Shown here piece by piece: positions 38,834-58,290 of a DNA stretch of 64,000 bases. The DNA is taken from positions 1 through 64,000 of the IMG/VR virus record IMGVR_UViG_3300033388_003971; one strand, 5' to 3'. The notes below the pieces were generated by a model. That model did not search any database. It was not told the origin of the DNA and saw only the letters and a program-made list of their open reading frames with translations. The first letter of the stretch is position 1. Each line of letters starts with the position of its first letter. The DNA is from a virus. A program made the position numbers and the translations under genes.

Positions 38834-41800
38834 TTAAAAAATTTGCTTCTCAAGATTCTTAAGCATCTCTTCTGCATCTTTTCTTGCATCTGTGACACCT
38901 TCACTAAATAAATACCCAGCATCAATAAATGATGACTTCAGGTCGTCTTGCTTAAATCCTTCTATACCTCCAACAAGTGGCTTCTTGTTTAGTGTAAGTG
39001 GGTGAATAAGTACTGGCTGCTTAAGCTGTGTCTTCTTCACATAGTAAGAACCTGCAGCATATAGTATACCTGCTCCTATTCCTAGCCATCCTCCTTTACC
39101 GATAAACTTACTTCCCTTGCCAAGCAGCTTGAAGAACCCCTTTGAAAATTTCTTACTTTTTAATGCATCCCATGTCTTAGTTGCACTAGCAGATACAGTA
39201 TCTTTTGCTTTGCTAGTAACTTTTAATGCTGCATCAATTGACACTTTACTACCAGCACTCTTAAGCTGAGAAGTCGCCTTTACGATAGTAGGCCCAACTT
39301 GCTTTCCAAGTTTTGGTCCTGCTGCAGCTATTGTCTCTCCGATTCCAAGCTCTGCAATCGCCTTACCTGCTGCATACCCTTTGCTAGACAGAGTTAAACC
39401 AGGCCCACCTAGCATAACTCCGAATACCATCATATCATATACGCCAAAGAACTGTGACATAGCTTGCGATATTGGAAGCGTTGCGTACTGGTTGCCAGAT
39501 ACACATAGGTCTGGAACTATCTCAGTTATAAACCCTGTCTCCTGTGAGAAATGATGAACAACCTGCTCTACCTCTACTGGTCCGTACATATCTGTTATCT
39601 TGTCGAATATGTGGCACGTGTCATATGGTTTAATCTCCGAATTCCCAAGCACTGTAATGCTACCACCATACATATCTTTCATATGTCTCAATAGAAGGCC
39701 AAGAGCATATCTTCTTGCCATATGTTTCTTCTCACAGTTTGGCTGCTGTGAAAATAACAGGTTAACAGTCTCATCTCTTAGGTCTGCATCAGCCTTAAGA
39801 GTTTCGTAATTATCATAATCATAGTTAACACGTCCAGTCTCGTCGTCAGCGTCTTCCATAACATCTTCTACATATTGAACTGTTGCCGCATTGTACGCAT
39901 CTGCATTTACGCTTATATTATTTGCTATAATATTTACAGTATCACTCAGATAATGATGATCTCTAAATGGTTTTATCCTATGTGCCTGAGTAGCTTTTCT
40001 TTTTTCAAATTCTGACGATAACACACCTGGCTCTTCTCCATAGAATATTGGCTTAACTCCAGACTTAATATCAGTTACAGAATACTGTGTTGGCAGGTGT
40101 ACTGATTGGCTCAATGCCGTATATACTTTTCCAGGATCATTGGCTGCTGCCTTCATCTTGTCGAGTTCACTAACCCTTGACTTATCAAGTAGATCGTCAG
40201 GCCTGTACCAGTACTCCATATCAGGCGTACCAAAGAACAATGTCATTCTGTTTCCATATGGAACTACACTTGCTACCCAACCAGGATGCCTTAGCTCCAT
40301 CTCTTTTAGTATATCCCATACGGTAGTTTGATGTATCTTATAGTCTAGATTTCCATATCTCTTTACTAATTTATCTGCATTAAATCCTGCTCCAATCACT
40401 GCTGCTGTTCCAACTGCATACGGATTTGCTGTTGCAAATGCAGCTGTTCCTCCCCATTCTACAGCTCCCCATGCCATTGACTTTAACCCATTCCACAGCT
40501 CTATATCTACAGCCTCGTTCCATGTAGAAGGATCTAACAAAGCCATATTAGCTATATACGTATGAGGCTGAGGTGCAAAAACATTATCATCTCTTGGGTT
40601 TAGGTTTGGGCCGTAGAGGCTATTTGCCCTATCTTCTAAATCCTCGTATGATGCCAGCATAGATATAAACCAATTCTTTCTCTTGTTTCCAAAATGCACA
40701 ATCTCAGGCGCCTGCATAACATAGTTTATCAATCCTGACGTTACCTTATCCTTAACTTTAGTTATACTTTCTGCTCTATGTAATCCTTTTACCTGGCTAA
40801 CAAGCTCTGTTGCGTAGCTCTGACATACAATCTGTACAACTTTACCTGGCTGTACCTCTACTATCTGCCCATTGAATACTATGTCAAGGTTTTCAGGATT
40901 ATTGTCATACCCTAGTCTTACCTGTATTCTTTGTCCAGGTCTAAGCAGTAATGCATCTACAGGGTTTTCTTGTGTAGTGTTTATTTTTGATTCATTCTTA
41001 TCCTCATAGAACTTGTCAAGGTTTCCATTATTATATTGAGTAGTATCACTAAGCTTTCCTGATTCATTTGACATGCTTATAATGCAAAGATCAGCCGGCA
41101 CTTTTCTGCTTCTTATAACTTTTATATCATGGACTGCATTGAACCCAAAAAACTCATCAAAGCTAAGCCTTGGAAGTATGTTGAATTCCTCACCATAGTC
41201 CTCCTCTATAAAGAAGATCTTGTAAGTAGGGAATGCCTTGTTCATAGAGTAATGTCCAGTATCATCCTTAACCTTTGCAATATGCTTATCCATTACAGCT
41301 CTAATACTAGCTTCATCATAGTTGTGAGTTGTCTTAGTGTCGTTTTGATTAAGCTCAAAATACTTTGTCTTATCGTCTTTTGTCTCAACCTTGCCATACT
41401 CTTCTGGCCTTGCCTCACCATTCTCTGCTGGTGAGTCTGAAGACACATCAGGCGGAATTAGGCCAAGCTCTTTCTTGGCAGTGGATGAAGTAGTATAAGG
41501 CGCTACCTCCATATCGTGGACTATTTTAAGTATGTCATCCTGGTAACCCTCTATATCTCTTACTAAGTCCTCTGTAAATTTACCATCATTCATGTCCTCG
41601 TAATAGTAAAAATTTGGATTCGTATCTATAGACGGAAGATTAAGATCTGGGTAACATGGAACTAAAGAAGCTTTTCTAACCTTTTCCATGTCAGATCTAA
41701 TGACGTTGAACTGTTTTAAATCAAACACTCCTCCTCGTAGCATATCCCAGAACACTTCAGATAAATCTGAATATATACCTGCAATCTTACCGTAGTCTAT

Positions 41801-44014
41801 TGGCTCAATTACTGCAGATTCTGCCTGTACACTTGTTGTAGAGAATCCACCACTAAGAGCTGCTAGCTCAGGATCCCATTTTGCATCTGCAAGATCTTTA
41901 TCTGTCTTTTCTTTTCTCTTTGCAATTTCAGGAATAACCATGTCTGCAAAACCATGTAGGTCTCCCATTTCAGAGATATACCTTTCATCTATTTCTTCAT
42001 CAAGTATAATGTTATTTAGGATATTAGCAACCTTATCTATTGAAACTGACAGAGGAGCGTTATAGTCTGGCAATGTTTCTACATAATCTCTCTTGTACCC
42101 TTCTGTATATGTTCCTTTATCTGTTGCTACTTGTAATGTCTGGATCCCAGTCACTATAGCTGCTGCTACATCTGCTACGACTCCTTTTGCTTCTAGTTGC
42201 GAGTACCTTGAAGGGTCTTGATCTTTTTTTATAAACTTTCCAGTCTTAGGGTCATAAAGCCCAACAGTTGAAGTTGCAGCGCTATGTAGCTCTGTTATTG
42301 GGCTATACTTAAAGTATCTCTTGTTCCTCATTATAGCGAATGCTCTATCTTTGATTTGATTTGTAGCAAGCACATGCTCTTGCGACAAGTTCTCCTCGAA
42401 GAATGGATCATGCTCAGTCAAACTAAACACAAAGATGTCCATCTCAGGATTACCAGGAACAGTAGAAGATTCAGTGCTGTCTCCTAATACTGCATTAAGA
42501 CCTAGCATCTTTGTTACAGGGTTTGAAATAGTTAATGATGCTGCATTCTTTACCTTATGAAACTCTAGTCCATTCTTATGCGCCCTATTTAGTGCGAACT
42601 TTACACCGTCTAGCGTTCCTCCTCTTTTACCTTCTGCTGAGAATATAGCTCTAACATGCTTTCCTCCTAGGTACTGATGAGTTGGATACTCGTGACCAAG
42701 TAACGGGATAGACGTTATACTGTTTGTCATTGCAACATTCAAGCTAGTAACAACAGCATCTGTTGCGTCATTATATTTCCTTGAAGACGGAAGCGTATAT
42801 ATAGCTTTCTTTTTAAATGTATTTCTTTCACTGGTTGGCAGCCATCCATTGTTTTTCTGTACAACAAGGAACTCTTGGTAAGCCTCTATGAAGTCTGCAT
42901 GCTCTGAAATATATCTTTTTGAGCTAAGGACACCTTCAACGTTTGCAGTGTTATTATCCTTTATCATATCATTAATATTTCTAGAAGCCGTCTCCATGCT
43001 TACATATGAAAAATGCCATGGAGCATTTGTATCTGGAATAAAATCATACTCAGAAGCTACCTTAACGAACCTCTGGTAGTCTTTGTCTGCTCTATACTTA
43101 GCAGCTTTTTCCTCTCCACTACCACTAAACATAGCAAGATCAAAAGCAATACCTGCTCTATGTTGATCTAGTAGACCTTCACCTTCATCATTATAGAAGT
43201 CTATGTCTAGTACAGACAGGAACATATTAGATATAGGAACCCTTCCACCATAAACTCTAGTCATTAATCCAAAAGCTCCAGATGAAATCCTGCTCATCTT
43301 TGGCATAGCTCCTGAGAAATTAGCATGACTCATATTAACTCTAAATAGGTTCTTGCCTATATCTTCTATGTCTGCATCTAGTACTGATTCCGGACCTGTT
43401 TCAACAGGAGGGCTTACAAGTGTAAGCTCATCAAAGCTTATCTGAGTGTCAAAGTCTGCATCACTTATTCTTGGCACAGTTTTCAGAATAGTCTTTAGGT
43501 GCCCAGTGTAAACGTTTGACTTAGATATGTCTGCTACAGCTCCATACTCTTGGCTGAGCTGTGGACCATAAGGATACGTCTTAAACTTAAGAGCATTAGT
43601 GTATGGTGCATGATTGAATATCATCATGTCTAAGGTTGCATATAGTGATCTTGGTTCATTTGGCTTTGTGTATACGCTAAGGTTACTTAGTGTTCCAGCT
43701 AATGATCCTGATAATGATGCGTCTGAAAAAGCTGCCCCGGCAATATAAGAGCTTGCAAGTTGAACGAATGGTGATACTTTAAAGCACGCAACCAAGGTTC
43801 TCAGAGTATTGTTTATCTCGTCTAAGTTAGGAAACGCCAGCTCAACAGTTATCCAGAACTGAGCATTCCCAGAACTAACACCTATTGGAGGTCCTTGTCT
43901 AAGCACATGATTGTAAGAGTTAACGTTCCTCTTGTGTGTCTGTATCCTTGTTGCATTAGCCTTAAGCTCTATCCCATTGATAGCAAGATCATATATTATT
44001 TTTTCATCTGCCAT
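38834..44014 (-). CDS. Giant baseplate hub protein, gp27/gpD-like
   Basis: The 1726-residue protein has an N-terminal domain (1-130) with GPPIGVSSGNAQFWITVEL, a possible tube-like fold. A second one appears near residue 430 (GHEYPTHQYLGGKHVRAIFS). Around 961-1061 is a hub domain: RKVPADLCIISMSNESG, LLLRPGQRIQVRLGYDN, DIVFNGQIVEVQPG, IVCQSYATELVSQ. At about 1451-1501 the segment GGSITVLGNSEIKPYDTCHIFD (in two parts) and GFITEIVPDL fit hubs of large myoviruses. Residues 1520-1660 are Ala/Gly/Lys-rich with a membrane-like stretch (GGWLGIGAGILYAAGSYYV). It probably plugs the tube and may contact the host membrane on injection. Its length is far above the T4 gp27 size. Confidence 0.85.
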   Translation of the reverse strand: MADEKIIYDLAINGIELKANATRIQTHKRNVNSYNHVLRQGPPIGVSSGNAQFWITVELAFPNLDEINNTLRTLVACFKVSPFVQLASSYIAGAAFSDASLSGSLAGTLSNLSVYTKPNEPRSLYATLDMMIFNHAPYTNALKFKTYPYGPQLSQEYGAVADISKSNVYTGHLKTILKTVPRISDADFDTQISFDELTLVSPPVETGPESVLDADIEDIGKNLFRVNMSHANFSGAMPKMSRISSGAFGLMTRVYGGRVPISNMFLSVLDIDFYNDEGEGLLDQHRAGIAFDLAMFSGSGEEKAAKYRADKDYQRFVKVASEYDFIPDTNAPWHFSYVSMETASRNINDMIKDNNTANVEGVLSSKRYISEHADFIEAYQEFLVVQKNNGWLPTSERNTFKKKAIYTLPSSRKYNDATDAVVTSLNVAMTNSITSIPLLGHEYPTHQYLGGKHVRAIFSAEGKRGGTLDGVKFALNRAHKNGLEFHKVKNAASLTISNPVTKMLGLNAVLGDSTESSTVPGNPEMDIFVFSLTEHDPFFEENLSQEHVLATNQIKDRAFAIMRNKRYFKYSPITELHSAATSTVGLYDPKTGKFIKKDQDPSRYSQLEAKGVVADVAAAIVTGIQTLQVATDKGTYTEGYKRDYVETLPDYNAPLSVSIDKVANILNNIILDEEIDERYISEMGDLHGFADMVIPEIAKRKEKTDKDLADAKWDPELAALSGGFSTTSVQAESAVIEPIDYGKIAGIYSDLSEVFWDMLRGGVFDLKQFNVIRSDMEKVRKASLVPCYPDLNLPSIDTNPNFYYYEDMNDGKFTEDLVRDIEGYQDDILKIVHDMEVAPYTTSSTAKKELGLIPPDVSSDSPAENGEARPEEYGKVETKDDKTKYFELNQNDTKTTHNYDEASIRAVMDKHIAKVKDDTGHYSMNKAFPTYKIFFIEEDYGEEFNILPRLSFDEFFGFNAVHDIKVIRSRKVPADLCIISMSNESGKLSDTTQYNNGNLDKFYEDKNESKINTTQENPVDALLLRPGQRIQVRLGYDNNPENLDIVFNGQIVEVQPGKVVQIVCQSYATELVSQVKGLHRAESITKVKDKVTSGLINYVMQAPEIVHFGNKRKNWFISMLASYEDLEDRANSLYGPNLNPRDDNVFAPQPHTYIANMALLDPSTWNEAVDIELWNGLKSMAWGAVEWGGTAAFATANPYAVGTAAVIGAGFNADKLVKRYGNLDYKIHQTTVWDILKEMELRHPGWVASVVPYGNRMTLFFGTPDMEYWYRPDDLLDKSRVSELDKMKAAANDPGKVYTALSQSVHLPTQYSVTDIKSGVKPIFYGEEPGVLSSEFEKRKATQAHRIKPFRDHHYLSDTVNIIANNISVNADAYNAATVQYVEDVMEDADDETGRVNYDYDNYETLKADADLRDETVNLLFSQQPNCEKKHMARRYALGLLLRHMKDMYGGSITVLGNSEIKPYDTCHIFDKITDMYGPVEVEQVVHHFSQETGFITEIVPDLCVSGNQYATLPISQAMSQFFGVYDMMVFGVMLGGPGLTLSSKGYAAGKAIAELGIGETIAAAGPKLGKQVGPTIVKATSQLKSAGSKVSIDAALKVTSKAKDTVSASATKTWDALKSKKFSKGFFKLLGKGSKFIGKGGWLGIGAGILYAAGSYYVKKTQLKQPVLIHPLTLNKKPLVGGIEGFKQDDLKSSFIDAGYLFSEGVTDARKDAEEMLKNLEKQIF

Positions 44015-47000
44015 TAGTATGCACCTTCAAGTAGTCTGTCTATCATTTCAGAAGTTATTTGTTTAGAGTTATCATTTACGTTAACGTTCACACTAGATGG
44101 AATTTTCATGCTTTCAACTATTTTCTTAGTAATATCATTATAGTCTGAATTTGCAGAATCCCTACCCCTTATCTTTATTACATTGGACATTGGAGTTTGA
44201 TTTTGATTTAGCATTCCTCTAGGTGTCTGTTGTATTGGGTTCGGAGCTTCAGGCATACCTGTTCTTCCTTGTACCTGATCAGGAGTAACAAACCTAGGCT
44301 TTGCCTGGAAGTTCATCTCAGGGACAAGAAGCTCTGTTCCTGATGGAGCAGCAATAGGTCGTCCTTCTGGTGCAGCCATCATATTGTATCCTCCAAATGG
44401 AGTGCTTTCTCTTGCTGCTAAATAAAACATTGCTCCAGCCACAGCTGTTGCTCCTGCTATAAGGCCGGCACTCATTCCTGGTCCACCTCTCATTGATCTC
44501 ATTTTTGTTTTAACATTTGAGATAAGGCTTTCAGTTGCTGAATCTGTCCTTGGCCTTCTAAGCATTGATTCAGTTATAGTTGAGTCTGGAACCATAGAGG
44601 AATACATCTCTGACTCTCTAATCATGCTCATCATTTTTCTTGGATCTTCTGCTAAGGCTATCGTATTAGCATCATACGCTCCCTTTTTAGCAAGGTTCAT
44701 AAAGTCTTCAGCTATATCTTTTTCCTTAAGCCCTGCAAGAGATTCAGTCAAAACTGTCTCCAGTGGCCTAGATAATACACTACTCTCTAGTAGGTCTACA
44801 TCAAACCTACTTGCTATCGAGCGCCCTATTATTGTTTGCAGTGCGTCAGCTTTTCTACCCTGATACCCCTTGCTGATATCGGTTACAGCTCCAAGAAGCT
44901 TCTCAGATATGCCAGTCAAATTTTCTGCTTCTGCTGCTGTTAAGTGCTTAGCTGATATCAATTCCTGAGGAACAAAATCATATAGAAGTGCTGCATCATC
45001 TATCAGTTCTCTTTTTCCAGTTGCTATTGCTCCCTTAAGGATTTGAGAATATGCATAGTCAACTCCACCAATCTCATTAGCAAGCATCTGCTTGGTCTTC
45101 TGCGCCATTACATCAAAGTGCTCTAGAGCATCAATCTTTGCTCCTCCACGTTTAGCAGCTTGAACAAGGCTGTAATCATTTCTATACGCAGAGATCTCTG
45201 CCTGGAAGTTTGAATCGCCAATCATCCTTCTAAGAGAGTCCTCTTCCCTTTTGTTCATCACAGAAGCTAAGCCTAGTCTGTCGGCATCAAAGTCACCTCT
45301 GAAAAGCTCCTTCATCATTGTCTCATCTGCCCTTAAGTGATGTCCTACTCCACCTAGATCCTGGCCAAGCCTCATCTTAACAGGAATAGCACTAAACTTT
45401 GAAACCTGAGGATGTCTCCAAGCCATTCCCATGACTTCTTCTCCTGCTTCAAATGCAGCTCTTTGTTCTTTAAGGAACCCTTTGTCAGCTCCTGCAAGTC
45501 GCATGTCATCCCACATCTTATCCATTAAGTCCATGCTTGTCTCTACAGTAAACATATTCCCTAATGGTTGTGGTCCAATCCCCTGATATAACTTCTGTAC
45601 CTGAACTCTTGCCGTACCTGTAAGCTTATGTTTTCCTGCTGCAAGATCAGCATACTGCTCAGATAGAGTTATGTTGAGTTGTCTAGCTTGCCTCTTTACG
45701 TCTTCTACTTCTGCACCCTCATCCATCATTTTGAGGAATTTCTCATACTGGCTAAGAGTTGTTCCTGCCATTCTCTCTCCAGTTGCTTCACTTACATATG
45801 GAGACATTGATTTTAACTCTAGATGTGATGGGAGATAAAGATGTTCCCCGCCCTGAATAGCTGATCTATATTTTTCTGGTATTTGCACAGTCATTCCTTC
45901 TTGTGCGAATATATTTCCAGCTACACCTTTAGCTAATATGCCAGTTCCTATTTTTCTGGATCCAGCTATTTGCTGTTCAGTAAGCACACTTGTATCGCCA
46001 GCCATTGTCATTACTGCTCTCTCTACTTCAGAGATTGCACCACCGGTTTCAAGCCTTCTTCTGCCTGCCATTATACCACCAAGCTCAGAAGTGTATTCTC
46101 CTTCTGCCATCATCTTCCATATGGCTCTTTGCTCGAACGTGCCTCTTCCTATGTCTGTTGCAAGCTCTCCTCCACCTGGAGTCATGCCAGCAATACCAAG
46201 AGCTGCACCTTTAGATCCTCTGATCCATGCTTGCTCTTTAGCTGAGAAACCTATGTCCTCTATGACATCCATAGCCATTTCAGATTTCTTGTATCCTCCT
46301 AGCTCCTTGAAGTACGTTCCAAAGACAGCTCCAAATCCTGCTGCTCCTATTGTGCCTTTCTTTACTTGTCCTCTTGCAACTTTAAGCAGCTCTTTCTCTA
46401 CTCCATGTTTACCACTCATCTTCTCTACATAAAGCGGATCGCTTACAAACTTGTCATCTATGCCTGCGGCTGCCATTACATGTCTTAGGCCACTTGTCAT
46501 TTGAGTTCTTCTTAATCTAAGATCTTTGAATAGGATATCCCCTTCTACAATGATGTCAGTGTTATACTTATTAAGCATCATGTTTGTAACTTTTTTATCA
46601 AGCCCAATCTCGTAAGCTTCTCTTTCAAACTCCTCTACACCCCTACTCATAAGAGTATGCTTAAGATCTTCAAACACTTTTACTCCAGAGTGTCCACGTA
46701 TCATTCTTCTTGTAACTACATGTAGGTAGTCAGAGTCAGCAGTATGTTTAGCAGATATTATCTCTTCTGTAACATCTCCTCCAAGTCCAGTTGATGATAC
46801 TAACGCACCCATATCATCAGAAGCATACGTTGTCACACCTTTAGCGGTGACCTCTCTTAATGTTTGGAATCCCATTCCTAGTGATGCTCCCTTTGGAAGA
46901 CTCACTCTTTTACCGGTTCTTTCTGCCTCTAGTATCTGCTCAGCTATTGGAATTGATCCTGGGGCTGCTGATATCTTAAAATGACGCTCTTGCTCTAGCT

Positions 47001-48471
47001 CTAGTATATCAGTTATAGTTGATCTAGCCATAGCTTCACCTTCACCAAAACGTGATGGCATTGCTCCTTTTGGAGTATAAAGAACAGCCGCGCTCAAGTT
47101 ACGTTTGTCTGCCATGTCTATTGCACCCTGGCTAGTAACAAGTGATCTTACACCTCTTTGTGCCTGGTATCTTTGTGCTTCACCGATAGCGCTCTCTGTC
47201 ATGTAGAGCTCATTTCTCATCATGTTCAGCGGCTTTCTTGACCAGTTCATTACCCCACTATCACCAGATCCAAATGGAACCCACTTAGACACGTCTACTC
47301 CCTTGTGAACCTGAATTGCTTGCATTGCACGCATTCCTTTTGCTGCATCTACAGACACCACCTCTTGCTTAGTCCCTGCAAAGTAGCCCCTTTTCTTAAT
47401 GGCTGTACCCATAGTCTGTTCAGCTGTAGAACCTTGAGCTATTTCTATATTAACTGCTGATGCATACTTTGCCTCCCAAGCTGCTCTCATTCCAGTTCCT
47501 TTTGGAGCCGGCATAACATTAGGAAAATATCCAGAGTAAAGCCCTCTAAGCTTGTTTAGAGATTGCTGTCCTGTATTACCAAAGTGAAACTTACCATTGT
47601 CCCACTTATCAAGAAGTCCACCTTTTTCCACTAGCTCATTAATAATATGATCTGCAAATGTTAAGGGCTTCCCGCCTCTTGCTTGATTCTTAATTGGATC
47701 AAACAATCCATACACGAAATAATTAGCATTATTAAGAGGCATCCTTCCTGTCAATGGCAACGTTAATGGTATTTTTTTTCCACCTTTCATTATGTCCAGC
47801 TCTACAACTGGAGCACCTGCCACATTACGAACCCTAAAATCCTCAGCCACATTAAAGCCAGTAGCTTGGCCAGTTATTGCTTGAGATAGCTTCTGGTGTA
47901 GTACGCCAGCTCTTTTGTGATACCTTTCTCCTCTTAATGGTGATGGGGTAACGTCTGAAAAGCTATACTTTGTAGACATGTTTGAGATGTTTCTCTTGCC
48001 TATAAGGCCAAACTGCTTACTAAGATTAGCCATTAGCGATGGTTTTTGAGTTTCTATAGACAAAGCTTGAAGCTCTGACATTGCAGTCGTAGGGTCTAGC
48101 AGACCTCTTGAAACAATCAAAGCTGATATCTCTTTTGGAGACAACTCTTTAAATGTTGAGCTAAGCGCTAACCTTGTACCGTACTCCATCTGTCTATGAA
48201 GCTCATTCGTGCTCATCCCTGATATCTCATGAGTCGTAACAGATTTAAGTATGTCATGTATATTAGACTGCGTGCTTACGTTGCCTTTTAGAGCATTGAT
48301 CCTGGTATTAGCTATAACATTCTGACGGTATAGACTAGCACTATTAGCATACTCAGGCGCAGTCTTAGCGCCGCTAAGCAAAACTCTATTGTTATAGTTG
48401 AGATTACGATTACTTACTCTTGAAAGGAATAACTTATCCCTTCTCTTTGATTCTGTTTTTCCTATTCCCAT
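44014..48471 (-). CDS. Giant tail-module protein with RNA polymerase beta-prime-like barrel motif
   Basis: The 1485-residue product has no whole-length family I recognise. Residues 1019-1027 read RHPQVSKFS, and residues 1058-1066 read RGDFDADRL, giving D1060, D1062 and D1064. The RxP followed about 40 residues later by DxDxD is the signature of the catalytic double-psi beta-barrel of RNA polymerase beta-prime (E. coli R425, P427, D460/D462/D464, spacing 35). Upstream, residues 466-477 (TPKGAMPSRFGE) recall the NPLGVPSRMN element of beta, and 592-599 (RGHSGVKV) recall GRHGNKG, but in reverse order. A hydrophobic segment lies at about 1327-1350. The gene lies between the first giant protein and the hub, so it may be a virion component delivered with DNA. 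It might also be a degenerate relic; the second aspartate pair has Ala where Gly is usual. Confidence 0.6.
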   Translation of the reverse strand: MGIGKTESKRRDKLFLSRVSNRNLNYNNRVLLSGAKTAPEYANSASLYRQNVIANTRINALKGNVSTQSNIHDILKSVTTHEISGMSTNELHRQMEYGTRLALSSTFKELSPKEISALIVSRGLLDPTTAMSELQALSIETQKPSLMANLSKQFGLIGKRNISNMSTKYSFSDVTPSPLRGERYHKRAGVLHQKLSQAITGQATGFNVAEDFRVRNVAGAPVVELDIMKGGKKIPLTLPLTGRMPLNNANYFVYGLFDPIKNQARGGKPLTFADHIINELVEKGGLLDKWDNGKFHFGNTGQQSLNKLRGLYSGYFPNVMPAPKGTGMRAAWEAKYASAVNIEIAQGSTAEQTMGTAIKKRGYFAGTKQEVVSVDAAKGMRAMQAIQVHKGVDVSKWVPFGSGDSGVMNWSRKPLNMMRNELYMTESAIGEAQRYQAQRGVRSLVTSQGAIDMADKRNLSAAVLYTPKGAMPSRFGEGEAMARSTITDILELEQERHFKISAAPGSIPIAEQILEAERTGKRVSLPKGASLGMGFQTLREVTAKGVTTYASDDMGALVSSTGLGGDVTEEIISAKHTADSDYLHVVTRRMIRGHSGVKVFEDLKHTLMSRGVEEFEREAYEIGLDKKVTNMMLNKYNTDIIVEGDILFKDLRLRRTQMTSGLRHVMAAAGIDDKFVSDPLYVEKMSGKHGVEKELLKVARGQVKKGTIGAAGFGAVFGTYFKELGGYKKSEMAMDVIEDIGFSAKEQAWIRGSKGAALGIAGMTPGGGELATDIGRGTFEQRAIWKMMAEGEYTSELGGIMAGRRRLETGGAISEVERAVMTMAGDTSVLTEQQIAGSRKIGTGILAKGVAGNIFAQEGMTVQIPEKYRSAIQGGEHLYLPSHLELKSMSPYVSEATGERMAGTTLSQYEKFLKMMDEGAEVEDVKRQARQLNITLSEQYADLAAGKHKLTGTARVQVQKLYQGIGPQPLGNMFTVETSMDLMDKMWDDMRLAGADKGFLKEQRAAFEAGEEVMGMAWRHPQVSKFSAIPVKMRLGQDLGGVGHHLRADETMMKELFRGDFDADRLGLASVMNKREEDSLRRMIGDSNFQAEISAYRNDYSLVQAAKRGGAKIDALEHFDVMAQKTKQMLANEIGGVDYAYSQILKGAIATGKRELIDDAALLYDFVPQELISAKHLTAAEAENLTGISEKLLGAVTDISKGYQGRKADALQTIIGRSIASRFDVDLLESSVLSRPLETVLTESLAGLKEKDIAEDFMNLAKKGAYDANTIALAEDPRKMMSMIRESEMYSSMVPDSTITESMLRRPRTDSATESLISNVKTKMRSMRGGPGMSAGLIAGATAVAGAMFYLAARESTPFGGYNMMAAPEGRPIAAPSGTELLVPEMNFQAKPRFVTPDQVQGRTGMPEAPNPIQQTPRGMLNQNQTPMSNVIKIRGRDSANSDYNDITKKIVESMKIPSSVNVNVNDNSKQITSEMIDRLLEGAY

Positions 48472-51400
48472 TAAATCCAGCCTTCTTTTTGTGCCTGGTC
48501 GAAGCCAGTCTGTAGAGAGTCTCTAGTTATGTCTAAGTCTATAAGGTTCTTTGGATCATCCAAGTGTAATTTGTCTACTGTAATATTAACATCATTTATG
48601 CCATAAGTAGCTAGTATATCATGCAATGTTGCCTGTATATCTGACGAAGACATATCTTGATCTATTGCCATTACTTGGCTCATAGCTTCTTCATCTATAT
48701 ATGGCTTGTACGGTAAAGTCTTCTCTCTTGATTCCCAGAGGTTAAAATCGTGCATATCCAGTCCTGCATTATTAACAGAGGTAAGCTTAATGTCTTCTAG
48801 GTCTGCTTGTGGATGCCATCCTACCCAGTCTGCACGAGGAAGAGGCTTGTTCTCAAAGTACTCAGCCAATGTCCTCTCTCTCTGAAAGTCTGCATAATCC
48901 TGCATTCCATCTTCACCTGCTCCTCTCATATAAGACTTGTACGCAGCAATGTCCTCTGCACCCACAGCCTGACCTTCTGCAGCTCTTTCTTGTTGAAGCT
49001 GAGTTAGCATCTCGTTCTGCTCAGGAGACAAAGATCCCTTTACTTTTCTTTCTGCATGTATCTGCCTAATAAGATCAACATTCCATCTGGCTCTAACTAA
49101 GTGATGTTCATACTTAGGGAGCATTGTCATTATCTCATCTCTTTCAGCTTCGCTTGATGCTTTTACAAATGCATCAAAATAAGGCTTGTCTCTTTTCTGC
49201 ATAGCAAGAAGAGCATTTATAGGATTACCATATGGATCTGCTCCAAATGCAGTCCTGTTTCTTTTCAGCTCATACTCTGAAGCAGCTTCCGTGTCACCTT
49301 TTGCTGCGGCTTCATTTTTTAACTTTGTATACTTTACATAGTCAAGCTTATCATAGTACTCTTCTATCTCGTTTCTTTTTTGTATATTGGCAGGTAACTC
49401 ATCCATGCCTAGATACTTATACCCAAACATCCTCATGGCCGGCCTTAGGAAGTTCTCCCATGGCTTATCCCAGAATGCACTTGTAGTTCCATATGCTTGA
49501 GAAGCTGCATACGTCTCAGTAGCTGTTCTTGTCTTACCAAATAAGAACTTATGCCCAGGAGCAAATGGAGTTATGAACTCTGTAGGCTGATCTAGTGCTT
49601 TAGCTCCTGCTTCCCAGTACGTTCCTATAGCTCTCTCAAGTTTACTGAATGCTACTTGTCCTTCTAGGACACCAGCAGAGGCTTTATCATATTCTGCAAC
49701 CTGAGCATCCATAAGCATTCTGTTTAAGTTTACTCCCTCTTGAGTTCTTACTACAGCTCTTATCTCTGGAGTATCTGATCCTGTCTTTGAATATTGCCTT
49801 AAAACATCTGCGCCCATTTCTATCTCTACTTTAGATCCTGGTAGCATTCCAGTTTCCTTTAGTAGTTGCGATGCTTTTGCTCTCTTTATATTAGCTCGTA
49901 TACCTGCTTCTTCTTTTGTTATTTCATTATGTTCTGTTATAGCTAATCTTGACAGCGCAGCCTGAGAAGTCTTTATGCCGGCCATAGATATCACAACACC
50001 TGGCATCTCCTGTATCTCAAACTTACCAGGCTCAATCATCCTCTTTACAGTTACTGTCTGAGTCTTTGTGTCTTGCTCTATGAACCTATGTCTAGTCTGA
50101 CCAAAAGGCTGAAGAGACTCTTTTATCTGCTGTCTCTGCTCACGTATCGTTTGATACATTACTTCTTCTTGCTCTGTAAGGCCACCTTGTTTACGTATCG
50201 CTTCAATAGTCTTCTTGTAAAACTTAGCTTGAGCAGAATACGGTGCAACATCCTGAAGTATCTTGTAACGATGCATTACAGAGTAATCTTCAGGTGCAAC
50301 TCCTTCTAGCTCTGGATACAGTGCTGCGTATCCTCTACCTGGAAGTCTTACTTCTCCTTCTAAGATCTTTCCAAAAGCAAAGCCATGCTGAAAATCTGGA
50401 GATGGTTCTCCTGGTCCAGGCATCCATGAAGGCTGCATATTCTTTATCGTATTATAGAAGTCTATCTGATTCCTCTTATGAGGAAACATTCTTCTATATA
50501 GCTCGGTAGAAAGGAATCCTCCACCAATCTGCATATCCCAGTATGCTCTTTCTATACCTGTGGCACGCCTAGATGTTTCAAGTCTTTCATATTGATCATA
50601 AAATTCTGCCCGTCCAGTAAGCTTCTCCTTTATAGACCCAGCTGTAAATCCAGTAAGACCGAACATTTCTGTGAGCCTGTATGCTTGCTCACCAAATGTC
50701 TGCGTTGGACTATATGGATCCACCGGTGCACCTTTTGGTATCTCACCAAGATCATATGCAGTAGTCTGTCCGAATGGTTGAGGGAGTCTTCTTACTGCAA
50801 ATCCACCTTCTCCATATCCATATCCCTCAATGCTTCTACCAGCTTGGTCAACTTGAATTGGACCTTGTCCTTCTTGGTATATTCCTGCAGGTCCGAAAGA
50901 TGGTCCCATAGGTGTCATCCATTCTTGAGCATGCATTATCTTTGAAGGCTTAATAATCTGTCCAAGTGTTGCTGCTAGTGCTGGTCCTATGAACGGAACA
51001 TCTTCAAATGCAGGGCTGGTCATAGGGAACGGGAACTCATAATAGTGTTCCTTTTCCCAAGCATAAGGATCCATCAAAAATCCAACAGGATTAAAGAGTG
51101 GATCATGTCGCATCTTATCAAACTGACTACCGTAGATAGCTTTTACTTTTGCCTTCTTCTCAGACATTGGGATAAAATGCTGTCTGAAGTACTGTATCTT
51201 ACCGCCTTCAAATGAAGACCTTCCCATCTCCCACCATCTACCCTTTTTAATGGCAACTTCTTTTTCACCACTGTATATGGCGCTTAGCTCTTCTGATGTG
51301 TCAGTTCCAGCAATTGCTCCTGGCAAGAATGGTAACGCATATAATAGTCCGGCTATTGCTCCGGTTCTTCTCATTGCGCTAGAAAGAGTTCTCTTCTTTA

Positions 51401-52709
51401 GGCTTTCGAAACCTAGCTTTTTCCCTAACCCGAATCCTACACTGTAGTCCTCTTTCTTAAAGTGTTCAAGTGCAAGTCTTGCAGATTCTGCCATACCATG
51501 TTTTTTTGAACCAGCAACAGTACGGTACATCCTAGCGCCATATGCACCAAATCCAAGTAGAGCTCCACCTGCTGGAAACGCAGCAAGACCAAGCAGACTT
51601 GTTGAACCAGGAGCTATCTCTTCCTGTCTCTCTGCAAGCTGCTGCATTCCAGTAGCTTCCATAAGCTTTGCTTTGCCTATTCTTGCAAACTTGTATGCTC
51701 CATATACTGACCCTGAAAGAGCTCCTCCAGTCATATAGTTGGCTAATTCTACGCCTTTCCATACTGCTACAGCAGGAAGAACCCTCTTCATCAGATACCT
51801 ACTTATAGTCTGATGTGCTGATCCTGCCTCAAATGCTGGAAATACTTTCCTGAAACCTTTTTGGTAACGTGACCCTTCTATTTTAGGGCCAAGCTTCTCT
51901 GCAAGCTTTTCTTTATATCCTCTGATAATAGGTAGTTCAGCAATTTCAGTAGGAACTACTCTTAATATCCTGTTGACTTGTTCTGTTGCTAGTGCATAGC
52001 CAAACCTAGAATATGCTTGACCTATACTCTTTCCTCCTATCGGAAGATACTTAACACTCTCGTCTACAAAGTTTAGACCTGGAGCATTTATAGACCTAGC
52101 GTAGTTCTTATAGAATTCAGCTTGGCCTGTTACTGAGTGTGCACTTAGTTTTGTTGCTCTATTTAAAAGAGTGGCGCCGGTTGTTGCTGTCTTAAGTTTA
52201 CCGGTTGCAGTATCAAGGATTACTCCTGTATCAAGAATATCTGCTCTATGTTTTTGGAATAAGCTTTTACCTACTAGCTTTTCTAGGTATGTCTGCCTTG
52301 ATTTGTCTTTCCAAAAGTCAGGACCCCAGGCTAAGTTGCCAGCTGATACAGAGCCTAACTTTGTGTCTAATGTTCCTAGTGGACTAAGTATCTCGCTGGC
52401 ACGATATGTAGACAGGATTCTGCCTGGAGACATACGCTCTACAGCCTGAGCTCCACGTATGTATGCGTCCCATACTCTTCCACTCTTGTATGGCAACGCT
52501 CCTGCAGCAAACACTCCTGCACCTACAGCAAGGCTGCTACCAAGTATAGACCTCTGTTCTCCTTCAGACAAGACTGGGCGCTGCCTTCCTCCTGCCCATA
52601 CTATTGGCTCAGACGAACGTCTACGTAAGTCCTGTGCAGAGGTCACATTTGGATCCTGCGAAGAACTAATTTGATTTATTGGGTATCCTGGTATGTCTGG
52701 TCTTGACAT
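48471..52709 (-). CDS. Giant tail protein in tape-measure position, with SNase-like domain
   Basis: The 1412-residue protein follows the chaperone-like pair, where tape measures are encoded. Hydrophobic stretches lie at about 54-75, 308-340, 366-393 (LLGLAAFPAGGALLGFGAYG) and 446-469, as in tape measures that reach the host membrane. It lacks the long coiled coil of most. Residues about 880-1010 resemble staphylococcal nuclease: TVTVKRMIEPGKFEIQ, then ISMAGIKTS, a helix ending LLKETG, KVEIEMGADVL, and GVNLNRMLMDAQVAEYD. The acidic and arginine catalytic residues of that enzyme are not apparent, so it is likely a binding fold. The start ATG has GGAGAG upstream, just beyond a terminator hairpin. 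Confidence 0.7.
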   Translation of the reverse strand: MSRPDIPGYPINQISSSQDPNVTSAQDLRRRSSEPIVWAGGRQRPVLSEGEQRSILGSSLAVGAGVFAAGALPYKSGRVWDAYIRGAQAVERMSPGRILSTYRASEILSPLGTLDTKLGSVSAGNLAWGPDFWKDKSRQTYLEKLVGKSLFQKHRADILDTGVILDTATGKLKTATTGATLLNRATKLSAHSVTGQAEFYKNYARSINAPGLNFVDESVKYLPIGGKSIGQAYSRFGYALATEQVNRILRVVPTEIAELPIIRGYKEKLAEKLGPKIEGSRYQKGFRKVFPAFEAGSAHQTISRYLMKRVLPAVAVWKGVELANYMTGGALSGSVYGAYKFARIGKAKLMEATGMQQLAERQEEIAPGSTSLLGLAAFPAGGALLGFGAYGARMYRTVAGSKKHGMAESARLALEHFKKEDYSVGFGLGKKLGFESLKKRTLSSAMRRTGAIAGLLYALPFLPGAIAGTDTSEELSAIYSGEKEVAIKKGRWWEMGRSSFEGGKIQYFRQHFIPMSEKKAKVKAIYGSQFDKMRHDPLFNPVGFLMDPYAWEKEHYYEFPFPMTSPAFEDVPFIGPALAATLGQIIKPSKIMHAQEWMTPMGPSFGPAGIYQEGQGPIQVDQAGRSIEGYGYGEGGFAVRRLPQPFGQTTAYDLGEIPKGAPVDPYSPTQTFGEQAYRLTEMFGLTGFTAGSIKEKLTGRAEFYDQYERLETSRRATGIERAYWDMQIGGGFLSTELYRRMFPHKRNQIDFYNTIKNMQPSWMPGPGEPSPDFQHGFAFGKILEGEVRLPGRGYAALYPELEGVAPEDYSVMHRYKILQDVAPYSAQAKFYKKTIEAIRKQGGLTEQEEVMYQTIREQRQQIKESLQPFGQTRHRFIEQDTKTQTVTVKRMIEPGKFEIQEMPGVVISMAGIKTSQAALSRLAITEHNEITKEEAGIRANIKRAKASQLLKETGMLPGSKVEIEMGADVLRQYSKTGSDTPEIRAVVRTQEGVNLNRMLMDAQVAEYDKASAGVLEGQVAFSKLERAIGTYWEAGAKALDQPTEFITPFAPGHKFLFGKTRTATETYAASQAYGTTSAFWDKPWENFLRPAMRMFGYKYLGMDELPANIQKRNEIEEYYDKLDYVKYTKLKNEAAAKGDTEAASEYELKRNRTAFGADPYGNPINALLAMQKRDKPYFDAFVKASSEAERDEIMTMLPKYEHHLVRARWNVDLIRQIHAERKVKGSLSPEQNEMLTQLQQERAAEGQAVGAEDIAAYKSYMRGAGEDGMQDYADFQRERTLAEYFENKPLPRADWVGWHPQADLEDIKLTSVNNAGLDMHDFNLWESREKTLPYKPYIDEEAMSQVMAIDQDMSSSDIQATLHDILATYGINDVNITVDKLHLDDPKNLIDLDITRDSLQTGFDQAQKEGWI

Positions 52710-53915: not shown

Positions 53916-54656
53916 CTATATAACATCTCTAGCAATAAAAGTGTATGCCTCTTGTATTGGCTCTCCGCTTACTTCTACAAGTTGTGACTGTCCTATTAAC
54001 TCAACCTTCTGTATTCTTTTTACAGTATGGTTTGATGTCTGATCGTCCATGTTTCCATATGTTAAAAATATATCAAACGACTCCATATGGTCAACTCTTC
54101 TATGTTCTGCAGAAGATACAGAATCAAGAGTTTCACCGGTGCTACCCCAAACCCTATCTTCAAATGCTTCAGCATAGTTTTCAAATTTAGCATCTGGCAA
54201 ACTTGCTATGTCTGCTATATCTTGATATTTTAATTGATCCATTGGTTTCTCAAGAAACCTTTCTATTGTATTTCTATCTATTGGGTTCGTCACTGATGTT
54301 GAGCCTTGTGCAAGTTCAGTAGGTGTCAGGTGTGCATTTGCTCCTGCATCCTGAAGCCTCTTAAGAACATAATACAAGTAACCTGATTCTTTAAAGTTTA
54401 TTGTAAACATTCCAGTAACCATTGAAGTTCCCTTTGCAACAAAATCCCAATGATACGATGCGTATCCATATATAGGTCTCTTCTGTTGCTCAATCTGATA
54501 CTTGATAGATGTTATCTCGTCTACCCATATGTCGCCAATATACAGCGATACATTAGCACCACTATAATGATCATAGTCGTATGTCTGTTTGCCTGGACTT
54601 ATGTTTTTATTAGATGGCTTGGAGCCATACTCTCTACTTGGTAATTTAGGTGCCAT
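53916..54656 (-). CDS. Tail-tube-like paralogue 3
   Basis: The 246-residue protein shares a fold-level pattern with the two proteins before it: YSGANVSLYIGDIWVDEITSIKYQIE in separate strands near residue 32, KRPIYGYASYHWDFVAKG near 60, and a FTINFKESGYLYYVL strand. Its middle carries a helical insertion (IDRNTIERFLEKPMDQLKYQ). A tube-initiator or distal/proximal ring role is plausible, since one tube gene normally suffices. It ends 58 bases before the chaperone gene and starts at TAATG overlap. Confidence 0.7.
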   Translation of the reverse strand: MAPKLPSREYGSKPSNKNISPGKQTYDYDHYSGANVSLYIGDIWVDEITSIKYQIEQQKRPIYGYASYHWDFVAKGTSMVTGMFTINFKESGYLYYVLKRLQDAGANAHLTPTELAQGSTSVTNPIDRNTIERFLEKPMDQLKYQDIADIASLPDAKFENYAEAFEDRVWGSTGETLDSVSSAEHRRVDHMESFDIFLTYGNMDDQTSNHTVKRIQKVELIGQSQLVEVSGEPIQEAYTFIARDVI

Positions 54657-55393
54657 TAGAATTTAAGTCCTTTCATTCGTGATTCCCTATTTGCTTCTTC
54701 AGACATCTCTTGCATCATAAGATCACTTGCACTAAGAGCATTTGTTATTTGAAGTCTCTTAGAGCTATCTTCATCTGGAAGCATAGGCCTAATATCTGTA
54801 GCTAAATACTGAACTACATTTTCTGTGAAGTAGTCATCTATTGACATTGTTATTCCTTCTGAGAATAATTCCACACCGTATATAACAAGATTAGAAACAG
54901 CTCCATACTCATTAGCAAAAGTTATAGTTATATCAAACCTAGGCAACTGATCTATAAGTGGAGTAGATACGTCTTGACTTGTGTCTGCTTTGATCCTAGA
55001 AAACACGTCATAGAGTACCTGCTTATTAAACATGGTGAAGATTATTGTCCCGGAAATTGTACGTGGACCTCTTGTGAACCCTTTAGGATATCCCATTCCA
55101 ATAGCTCTAACAGGATACTTCTCTCTATAGATAGAGTAGCTTAATGTTTGAACATCACCAAGGACAAGTGGTTTACTATAATCTACAGCTATATCTTCTG
55201 CAGAATCAGGGTCATCATTTTTTATGAAGCCAGGTGGGATGTGGATTATGGCTTTAATATCGGCTCCACTATATACATCGTATGTAGCTTCAGCTGATAT
55301 CTCTCCAGTTGGAGTATATTCTATGCCTTTATCAGCAGCAAGGGTTGCTGCTCCAGGTGTTATTTTACCTTCTCCTGCCACACTCATCTCCAT
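54656..55393 (-). CDS. Tail-tube-like paralogue 2
   Basis: The 245-residue protein shows YSGADIKAIIHIPPG, LVLGDVQTLSYSIYREKYPV, IGMGYPKGFTRGPRTISGT and IIFTMFNKQVLYDVF, parallel to the 211-residue protein upstream. Near residue 165, FDITITFANEYGAVSNLVIYG repeats the same element (FDVTLSAANEYGAVS). The start is uncertain: ATG 55393 lacks a ribosome site, whereas GTG 55381 has GGAG six bases away. Likely a tube or tube-cap subunit. Confidence 0.75.
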   Translation of the reverse strand: MEMSVAGEGKITPGAATLAADKGIEYTPTGEISAEATYDVYSGADIKAIIHIPPGFIKNDDPDSAEDIAVDYSKPLVLGDVQTLSYSIYREKYPVRAIGMGYPKGFTRGPRTISGTIIFTMFNKQVLYDVFSRIKADTSQDVSTPLIDQLPRFDITITFANEYGAVSNLVIYGVELFSEGITMSIDDYFTENVVQYLATDIRPMLPDEDSSKRLQITNALSASDLMMQEMSEEANRESRMKGLKF

Positions 55394-56115: not shown

Positions 56116-58290
56116 TTATAGTAGTGCGCTAAGTGACAGTACTATTGTGATCTGTCTCAACTCGAAAGCAGGAACAAGAACTAGCTCTATTGTGGCATCG
56201 CCCTGTACTTGCTGTTGAGGAGTAGAAGACACAGTCAACTGGAAGTCTTGCAGGTATCCTTGTCTTTGAAGTATACCAAGTCCAGCATCCACAGCAGTTT
56301 CAAGTGCAGCTCTTCTTTGCGCAGTATTAGCCTCTCCAACGAATGGATCAGCAACAGACCTTACAACGTCGATAGACTCTTTTACGATTCTAACTGTTGA
56401 CAGTCTATTATAGTCTGAGCTCTGTCTAGCAGCAGTTGGAGCGTCAACAACAACTGTTCCTTTAGGTCTCTGAGCAAACATTGTATATTTGACTCCAGCA
56501 AGATCATCAAGAACCGTGTTATTCAGTCCATGAATAGCTCTTACCCTAGGAACTACTTTGTTTGTTGGTGCAGACTTAGAGTCAAGAGACATAATGAATC
56601 CAGCATAACTAGGTGCTGTATTACTCAAATATCCATTAACATTACTAGTCCACTGATTTGCCAGCCTAACATAACTAGGAGTTATTGATATGTATTTTCC
56701 AATATCAACAAATTCGTTGTTCTGATCTAAGAGCTCGCTTCCACCAAGGTTTCCTGAATCAGTTGCTATGAATCCACCAAATGCATCACCACCTCTGTAG
56801 CCGGCTGATCCTGACATAAACTTGTTTCCAAGTAGTCCAGTACCATCGTCTCCAGCATCAAAGATTACGCTAGTTCCGTCATCATTAACTGTGTAGTCTG
56901 GTAGGTTACCAACCCATCTTGCAATGTCCCTTGGGCCAAAGCTTTGAGGAGGTAGAGTACCTATTGTTCCTATACACTCGTTATTGTTTACAGACATAGT
57001 GAAACAGAAGTTAGCTAGCTGATATGCAAAGTTAACCTCTATGAAAGAGCCTGTTATGTCACTTCCATCAATGCTAGTCGTTGCACTTGCAGCTCCAACG
57101 GCAGGGAAGATATTAGCTTCTCCGTCATCGTCAGTATCCCAGTAGAAATATGTCTCTCCAAGATACTCTTCAGTAAACACTTTACCAAGTATGTCTTGCT
57201 CATTACCAGCTGTAGGATAATCAGAAATCGAAGCAAGGTCAAGTGTCGTGATCTGACCAGAAGTCAGGTCAACAACGTTGTTGTCGTCAAGATATACATC
57301 CATCGGAACAACCATGTCTACTCTTTCATTCTCTAGTGCGCTATACGCATAAGCAAGATTCTCATACTGCTCCATCTTAGATGGATTAGTTCCATCTGTA
57401 CCAGCTGTACTAACCACGAATGGTGTATACGTGTGGTAGTATGTTACAGTAGCATCTAGTGCTGTTTGATCACCAGACATAGTTATCACACCAGTTGTGT
57501 AATCAATATGGTAATCTCCAGCTGCAAGAACAAGAGCTGCTGTGTCAACTTCTGTTACAAATTCTGCAACGTCTGTTCCACCGAATACAGGTACAACTCC
57601 TGGGCTGTCGCCAACAGGAATGGTTCCAAGTGCTACAAGTGTACTTTCAGGATCACCAAAAGCATCAAATACTAGTACTTCATCCGTTTCAACTGTGTAA
57701 GCTGCTATACTATCTTTGGCAATGTCCTCTAGAGCGATAGCTCCAGCTGCACTGTCAGTACCGATTCCAGAATCGGTTGTTGTTCCTCCCAATAGTGATC
57801 CAGAAACGATTACGTCAAGAGTATCAATCTCTTCACCTTCTTCGTTGCTATACACTAGGAAGTCATCAGAACTTCTCCATACTTTAAGTAGACCAGCAGT
57901 ACCGTTTGTAGTTGGGTCAAAATGAACCGCGTACTGTGTTCCTGCTGTGTCGTCTTTGTCAGAAGTTTCAATGATGTATCCAGGGTCTCCAGATGATGAG
58001 AAAGCAGTGTTACCTACTCCTTCCGCTTTAGCAGAAGTAGCTCCCATTCTGTAGACTCTTATGTTGGATGCACCACCATCTTTAACTTCGTACATTCCTC
58101 TAGTTAGAGTTCCATCGAGCCCGTATTGAGCTACGATGTCAGCTGTTCTAATGACTCTGGTCAATTCGTTTGCTGCTCCCTTAGCCGAAGTACCAAGTAC
58201 TACAGTTTGTGGCGCAACTTGAGCCTGAAAAATATCCAAGCCACCGTCGACCTTTTCGCTGAAAACGCCAGGTAAGTTCTCAAAAGCCAT
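56116..58290 (-). CDS. Tail sheath protein
   Basis: The 724-residue protein starts with NLPGVFSEKVDGGLDI and VVLGTSAKGAANELTRVI, the N-terminal arm and first domain of sheath proteins. Its C-terminus (VRIVKESIDVVRSVADPFVG, DAGLGILQRQGYLQDFQLTV and a last Ala/Leu-rich strand) matches sheath C-domains. A large insertion at about 150-330 includes an LAAGDYHIDYTTGVITMS module. Sheaths usually have 400-660 residues, so this one is long because of that insertion. It contracts to drive the tube through the cell envelope. Confidence 0.93.
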   Translation of the reverse strand: MAFENLPGVFSEKVDGGLDIFQAQVAPQTVVLGTSAKGAANELTRVIRTADIVAQYGLDGTLTRGMYEVKDGGASNIRVYRMGATSAKAEGVGNTAFSSSGDPGYIIETSDKDDTAGTQYAVHFDPTTNGTAGLLKVWRSSDDFLVYSNEEGEEIDTLDVIVSGSLLGGTTTDSGIGTDSAAGAIALEDIAKDSIAAYTVETDEVLVFDAFGDPESTLVALGTIPVGDSPGVVPVFGGTDVAEFVTEVDTAALVLAAGDYHIDYTTGVITMSGDQTALDATVTYYHTYTPFVVSTAGTDGTNPSKMEQYENLAYAYSALENERVDMVVPMDVYLDDNNVVDLTSGQITTLDLASISDYPTAGNEQDILGKVFTEEYLGETYFYWDTDDDGEANIFPAVGAASATTSIDGSDITGSFIEVNFAYQLANFCFTMSVNNNECIGTIGTLPPQSFGPRDIARWVGNLPDYTVNDDGTSVIFDAGDDGTGLLGNKFMSGSAGYRGGDAFGGFIATDSGNLGGSELLDQNNEFVDIGKYISITPSYVRLANQWTSNVNGYLSNTAPSYAGFIMSLDSKSAPTNKVVPRVRAIHGLNNTVLDDLAGVKYTMFAQRPKGTVVVDAPTAARQSSDYNRLSTVRIVKESIDVVRSVADPFVGEANTAQRRAALETAVDAGLGILQRQGYLQDFQLTVSSTPQQQVQGDATIELVLVPAFELRQITIVLSLSALL

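Follow-up and report, generated by a model that had tools for sequence, protein, structure and literature searches.

A candidate single-polypeptide two-barrel virion RNA polymerase encoded beside the baseplate hub of a contractile-tailed 0305phi8-36-like phage

The stretch of viral DNA analysed here (64,000 nucleotides, hereafter the window) comes from a 70.8-kb IMG/VR fragment and carries a contractile-tail module. In transcription order, the block encodes a major head protein, the tail sheath protein (56116–58290, minus strand; phrog_16991, E 3.4e-76), tube-like proteins, a protein of 1412 amino acids (48471–52709, minus strand), the ORF that is the subject of this work, a 1726-aa baseplate hub of the 0305phi8-36 type just downstream of it (38834–44014, minus strand) and a baseplate wedge, which bears out the tail-module setting in a contractile-tailed phage proposed by the initial annotation. 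The hub was identified by tblastn to the hubs of phages ME3 and KLEB27-3 and by phrog_20474 and phrog_4930; it also matches, over a short stretch only, that of Moorella phage MTATph1, and the ME3 hub is annotated as homologous to the hub of Bacillus phage 0305phi8-36. Two adjacent genes of the window (53916–54656 and 54656–55393) both match phrog_9206 and likely encode paralogous tube or head-type proteins. By eye only, a VxDGDT(I/L/F) segment resembling a staphylococcal-nuclease-type domain was noticed in the hubs of KLEB27-3 (L002:10660-17640) and of loci L003 and L004.

The ORF itself (44014–48471, minus strand) starts with ATG, encodes 1485 amino acids and has no prior annotation. Its translation carries RHPQ at residues 1019–1022 and GDFDAD at 1059–1064, precisely where the initial annotation had placed what it read as the catalytic signature of an RNA polymerase (RNAP) beta-prime barrel, and R1019 lies 41 residues before D1060, in keeping with the spacing described there. 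By arithmetic, R1019–D1064 is coded by bases 45280–45417, where the initial annotation gave 45271–45420. The RxP motif (R1019-H-P1021) is thus encoded at 45409–45417 and D1060-F-D1062-A-D1064, the candidate Mg-binding triad of a beta-prime-type barrel, at 45280–45294, both on the minus strand; the latter has Ala where cellular enzymes carry Gly. When residues were shuffled within the window ORFs, an RxP followed 30–60 residues on by DxDxD arose 0.34 times per window on average and at least once in 30% of shuffles, while shuffling of the target protein alone gave P = 0.008. Taken by itself, the motif is therefore poor evidence, and the decision fell to the homologues. This frequency is what speaks for the motif having arisen by chance in some unrelated structural protein, a reading that is refuted by the family conservation, the match to RNAP beta-prime profiles and the two independent structural signals presented below, and to which we give almost no credence.

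Searches with the window protein did not detect relatives. No match was returned by tblastn against 50,697 phage records or by two scans of viral contigs, and neither hmmscan against Pfam and PHROGs nor phmmer against the PDB gave an RNAP match; up to E 10 the protein had no Pfam match at all, PF05183 (the YonO/QDE-1 family) included. A scan of genome contigs returned a single contig, which was irrelevant. The neighbouring hub was used as bait instead of the target, and alignment of hubs recovered 28 and then 80 viral loci, bringing in 0305phi8-36-like phages, namely ME3, KLEB27-3 and dozens of contigs from IMG/VR. In 37 sequences, window included, the gene immediately upstream of the hub gene proved homologous, with lengths from about 1400 to 3000 aa. 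In the first locus set, this large ORF contained RxP and DxDxD in 22 of 23 distinct cases, L024 being the one without, and window-like members from the second set had the pair as well; four loci of that set fell outside the search pattern, with DxDxD in place and RxP farther upstream in the alignment (KxP in L042). BLASTP between members repeatedly aligned the motif region only (e.g. window residues 1013–1114 with L026, E 6e-5). No recognisable member was found upstream of the hub at L024 and L046, nor, within the DNA available, at most of the loci with weaker hub matches (L052–L110), and at L043 and L050 the sequence ends at the target position. In MTATph1 (L004:2569-9925), an element that encodes a transposase and an ATPase-like helper seems to interrupt the homologous gene, of which the C-terminal part survives and the catalytic region is missing.

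Conservation within this family is concentrated at the motif. A plain MAFFT alignment of 24 full-length members has only ten columns that are invariant or nearly so, five of them being R1019, P1021, D1060, D1062 and D1064. Across 37 core ranges cut around DxDxD, a count that leaves out L024 and L046, and with identities of 11–36% to the query, the sole invariant columns were P1021, D1060, D1062 and D1064 (37/37 each), with G545 and R1019 near-invariant (R in 35/37). The initial annotation had made conservation of the three Asp and of RxP in homologues decisive for its proposal, and both are conserved. It had also allowed for a relic reused structurally, that is, a former RNAP with a dead active site serving as a structural or tape-measure protein. 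In support of such a protein, the corresponding gene of 0305phi8-36, orf146, owes its tape-measure assignment to a correlation with tail length (PMC2147016), and member length varies over the range given above. Yet it is exactly the catalytic residues that are invariant, at an overall identity of about 15%, no full-length member detectable by profile lacks DxDxD, and the closest relative, L033 (36% identity over 1416 aligned residues), carries the canonical DYDGD. A structural relic is accordingly disfavoured and seems to us very unlikely. By position, although this is not proven, the 1412-aa protein upstream of the target, which takes the place of ME3_35 in the gene order, looks a better candidate for the tape measure protein.

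Sequence profiles link the family to RNAP largest subunits. With a profile built from family members only and searched against all PDB sequences, the best 60 of 109 matches were all RNAP beta-prime or gamma (best E 2.2e-4), and the alignment to beta-prime in the PDB falls on the NADFDGD site. The core profile found the PhiKZ RNAP (PhiKZ055) as its best PDB match (1.4e-3), followed by archaeal and eukaryotic Rpb1, with a few weak non-RNAP matches mixed in; its match to gp96 of Thermus phage P23-45 (8h2n) was weak (E 0.72). No Pfam family other than PF00623 (Rpb1 domain 2) recurred in the 37 members (4/37), and when PF00623 was run over 20 whole related phage records it fell on the gene of this family in seven, KLEB27-3 included (E 2e-5 to 0.017), with no match over the window's own 70.8-kb record. 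No NCBIfam family recurred among the members. Among further profiles, that of the window's own clade (A4) matched AR9 beta-prime only (E 0.41), A7 reached ASFV and PhiKZ RNAPs at E 1.3, and clade profile A6 gave no RNAP match. Family profile A3 matched neither crAss gp66 nor P23-45 gp64, and its match to P23-45 gp96 lay away from the gp96 active site. Two family members match the phrog_192 exonuclease.

Two AlphaFold models were examined, the first of residues 222–1345 with 16 relatives (mean pLDDT 56) and the second of residues 424–1200 with the 37-sequence alignment (pLDDT 75.5, pTM 0.71). In the second model, all Foldseek matches listed were beta-prime or Rpb1 (best E 1e-5; 258 matches at E <= 0.001), and VIA placed Rpb1/beta-prime over model positions 401–777 (Z 10.9–11.8), for example with 286 residues at 4.8 A for 8xxp_A and 152 at 2.9 A for 4c2m_P. 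These alignments continue beyond the barrel into the matching part of Rpb1, on the bridge-helix and trigger-loop side. Residues 826–1200 (44872–45996, minus strand) are predicted by VIA and Foldseek to form a beta-prime/Rpb1-like region with the catalytic barrel and the bridge-helix and trigger-loop positions. For the first model, all Foldseek matches listed were RNAP largest subunits, and the top 50 VIA matches were all RNAP beta or Rpb2 (Z 7.8–8.6), most of them over model positions 173–545. The latter correspond to residues 394–766 (46174–47292, minus strand), a beta/Rpb2-like region that would hold the second barrel. This beta-type barrel is present in the weaker model with low confidence, given its pLDDT of 56 and a Z of 8.6 near the VIA caution level. 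Taken together, the predicted structures contain the two double-psi barrels whose absence would have told against the initial proposal, and the two emerge independently because no RNAP sequence was included in either alignment. In the viral structure library BFVD, the top structural match was a “minor tail protein” of Siphoviridae sp. ctnpt50 (A0A8S5SD80, E 6e-11), which may be a further virion RNAP fused to a tail protein. In third place came one half of an ME3 protein that is uncharacterised and has a length suited to ME3_36. ME3 has a further uncharacterised protein of matching fold (A0A172Q0S6, 798 aa), perhaps its non-virion RNAP.

Of the two weaker beta-like stretches that had been pointed out, residues 592–599 contain the conserved K598, whereas 466–477 show no such conservation. 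K598 (K in 32/37) and K604 (K or R in 32/37), encoded at 46660–46680 on the minus strand, are good candidates for the catalytic lysines of the beta barrel, on the grounds of sequence position and not of superposed coordinates. Several members have these two basic residues 8 positions apart (KLIMGGVEK in L021, KVFGEGGVK in L033), as is the catalytic lysine pair of bacterial beta (E. coli K1065/K1073). After the beta-prime-type barrel and the bridge-helix position, a conserved QxxIxxKH segment, Q1169-ELISA-KH1176 in the window protein (44944–44967, minus strand; Q 27/37, I 27/37, K 31/37, H 29/37), is a candidate trigger-loop element. The chain would thus place the beta-type barrel first (about 394–766, with K598/K604), the beta-prime-type barrel second (RxP at 1019–1021, DxDxD at 1060–1064) and bridge-helix- and trigger-loop-like segments after it.

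The family conservation, the beta-prime profile match, the models of both barrels and the lysine pair lead us to conclude that the protein is very probably a single-chain two-barrel RNAP of the cellular kind. The homology to RNAP, the invariant catalytic residues of the 37 distant members and the single conserved locus beside the hub are established directly, and both barrel folds are so in predicted models; that the enzyme synthesises RNA is inferred, and it is probably active, there being no RNA-synthesis data.

Whether such an enzyme is packaged has to be argued from its setting. A true two-barrel RNAP might remain in the cell, as a late-type intracellular protein or a primer-maker whose location among tail genes is incidental. 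There is no mass spectrometry for the window phage to rule this out, and two-barrel enzymes also act as a non-virion RNAP, as with P23-45 gp64 (PMC10770324), and as a DNA polymerase (PolD). Against this stand the location of the gene, which in each of the 37 members lies immediately upstream of the hub gene, the annotation of the KLEB27-3 homologue as “structural protein” and the C-terminal features of the protein. The latter consist of a conserved tail (about 1400–1485; 44017–44274, minus strand), a candidate virion docking domain whose NxNxNDN motif is common to KLEB27-3 and MTATph1 and whose P1410 is near-invariant in the 24-member full-length alignment, and of a single hydrophobic segment detected by hydropathy scan (residues 1335–1353; 44413–44469, minus strand), a candidate membrane anchor. 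Moreover, an enzyme whose synthesis begins only with the late tail genes could not serve the early genes in time, and related phages carry a separate YonO-like RNAP elsewhere. We therefore regard an enzyme that stays out of the virion as unlikely. A packaged and injected RNAP fits the tail location, the known precedents and the KLEB27-3 annotation, and packaging with ejection is most likely what happens, although this is inferred without direct evidence of presence in the virion.

Virion RNAPs have already been described in crAss-like, N4-like, PhiKZ-like and P23-45-like phages. The closest precedent is P23-45 gp96, a virion RNAP fused to the tail tape, which like the target is a giant protein of the tail module that has a hydrophobic segment and a single-chain two-barrel RNAP, its beta-type barrel preceding the beta-prime-type one, and which likewise has a second RNAP elsewhere in related phages (PMC10770324). 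However, gp96 is a 5002-aa tape measure of a siphovirus with the RNAP at its N-terminus (PMC10770324), whereas the target is a separate ORF beside the hub of contractile-tailed phages, with its core (about 394–1200) in mid-chain behind an N-terminal extension; the target is not a tape-measure fusion of the P23-45 type, and sequence similarity between the two is marginal. Gp66 of crAss-like phage phi14:2 is also a giant virion two-barrel RNAP in one chain, but it belongs to a different phage order, does not lie beside a contractile hub and was not matched by the family profile. The RNAPs of PhiKZ and AR9 share the beta-prime-type barrel and are split over several subunits, while the target holds both barrels in one ORF.

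The YonO/QDE-1-like enzymes are likewise single-chain two-barrel RNAPs and occur in the same phage group, orf99 of 0305phi8-36 being one that lies apart from the tail genes (PMC2147016). They are non-tail genes recognised by PF05183, unlike the window protein. Both kinds occur together in relatives such as G010–G014. A second PF05183 gene apart from the tail gene was observed in many related phages (L133–L140, in G003, G005 and G009–G014, and also in G017). The presence of this enzyme makes a two-polymerase programme likely in those phages, without showing it for the window phage. In the phage of L013, a 573-aa frame (L142, G004:182223-182393) scores above the Pfam cut-off for Rpb1 domain 2 and is possibly a separate non-virion RNAP.

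Our main reading, to which we assign a probability of roughly 0.83, is that the ORF encodes the tail-module two-barrel RNAP of a contractile-tailed 0305phi8-36-like phage, made late, packaged, ejected and transcribing early, packaging and activity being inferred. By inference, the enzyme would be built into the phage tail at the hub end by way of its conserved C-terminal region and ejected ahead of or together with the DNA; the hydrophobic segment may tether it at the membrane, and it would transcribe the first phage genes while the genome enters. In several related phages, the second RNAP could take over later, as in P23-45.

No report of a tail RNAP in the 0305phi8-36-like group was found in the literature, although most subscription journals lay outside the search and a prior description is not excluded. 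We think it probable that the tails of these phages have as a core component, placed at the membrane end, a family of ejected two-barrel RNAPs that is ancient, large and has gone unrecognised, that the “tape measure” label at this locus is wrong, and that many of these phages possess a virion and a non-virion RNAP as a pair independent of host RNAP. If this is true, transcription would start as the genome enters, and the range of virion two-barrel RNAPs, which covers crAss-like podoviruses and a Thermus siphovirus, would widen to a broad group of phages with contractile tails, among them the cultured and testable ME3 and KLEB27-3. A gene assigned as tape measure would be reinterpreted, 0305phi8-36 orf146 itself having been outside our comparison. 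Finally, a divergent clade would be added to the deep history of two-barrel polymerases, made up of compact enzymes that can travel through a narrow tail tube.
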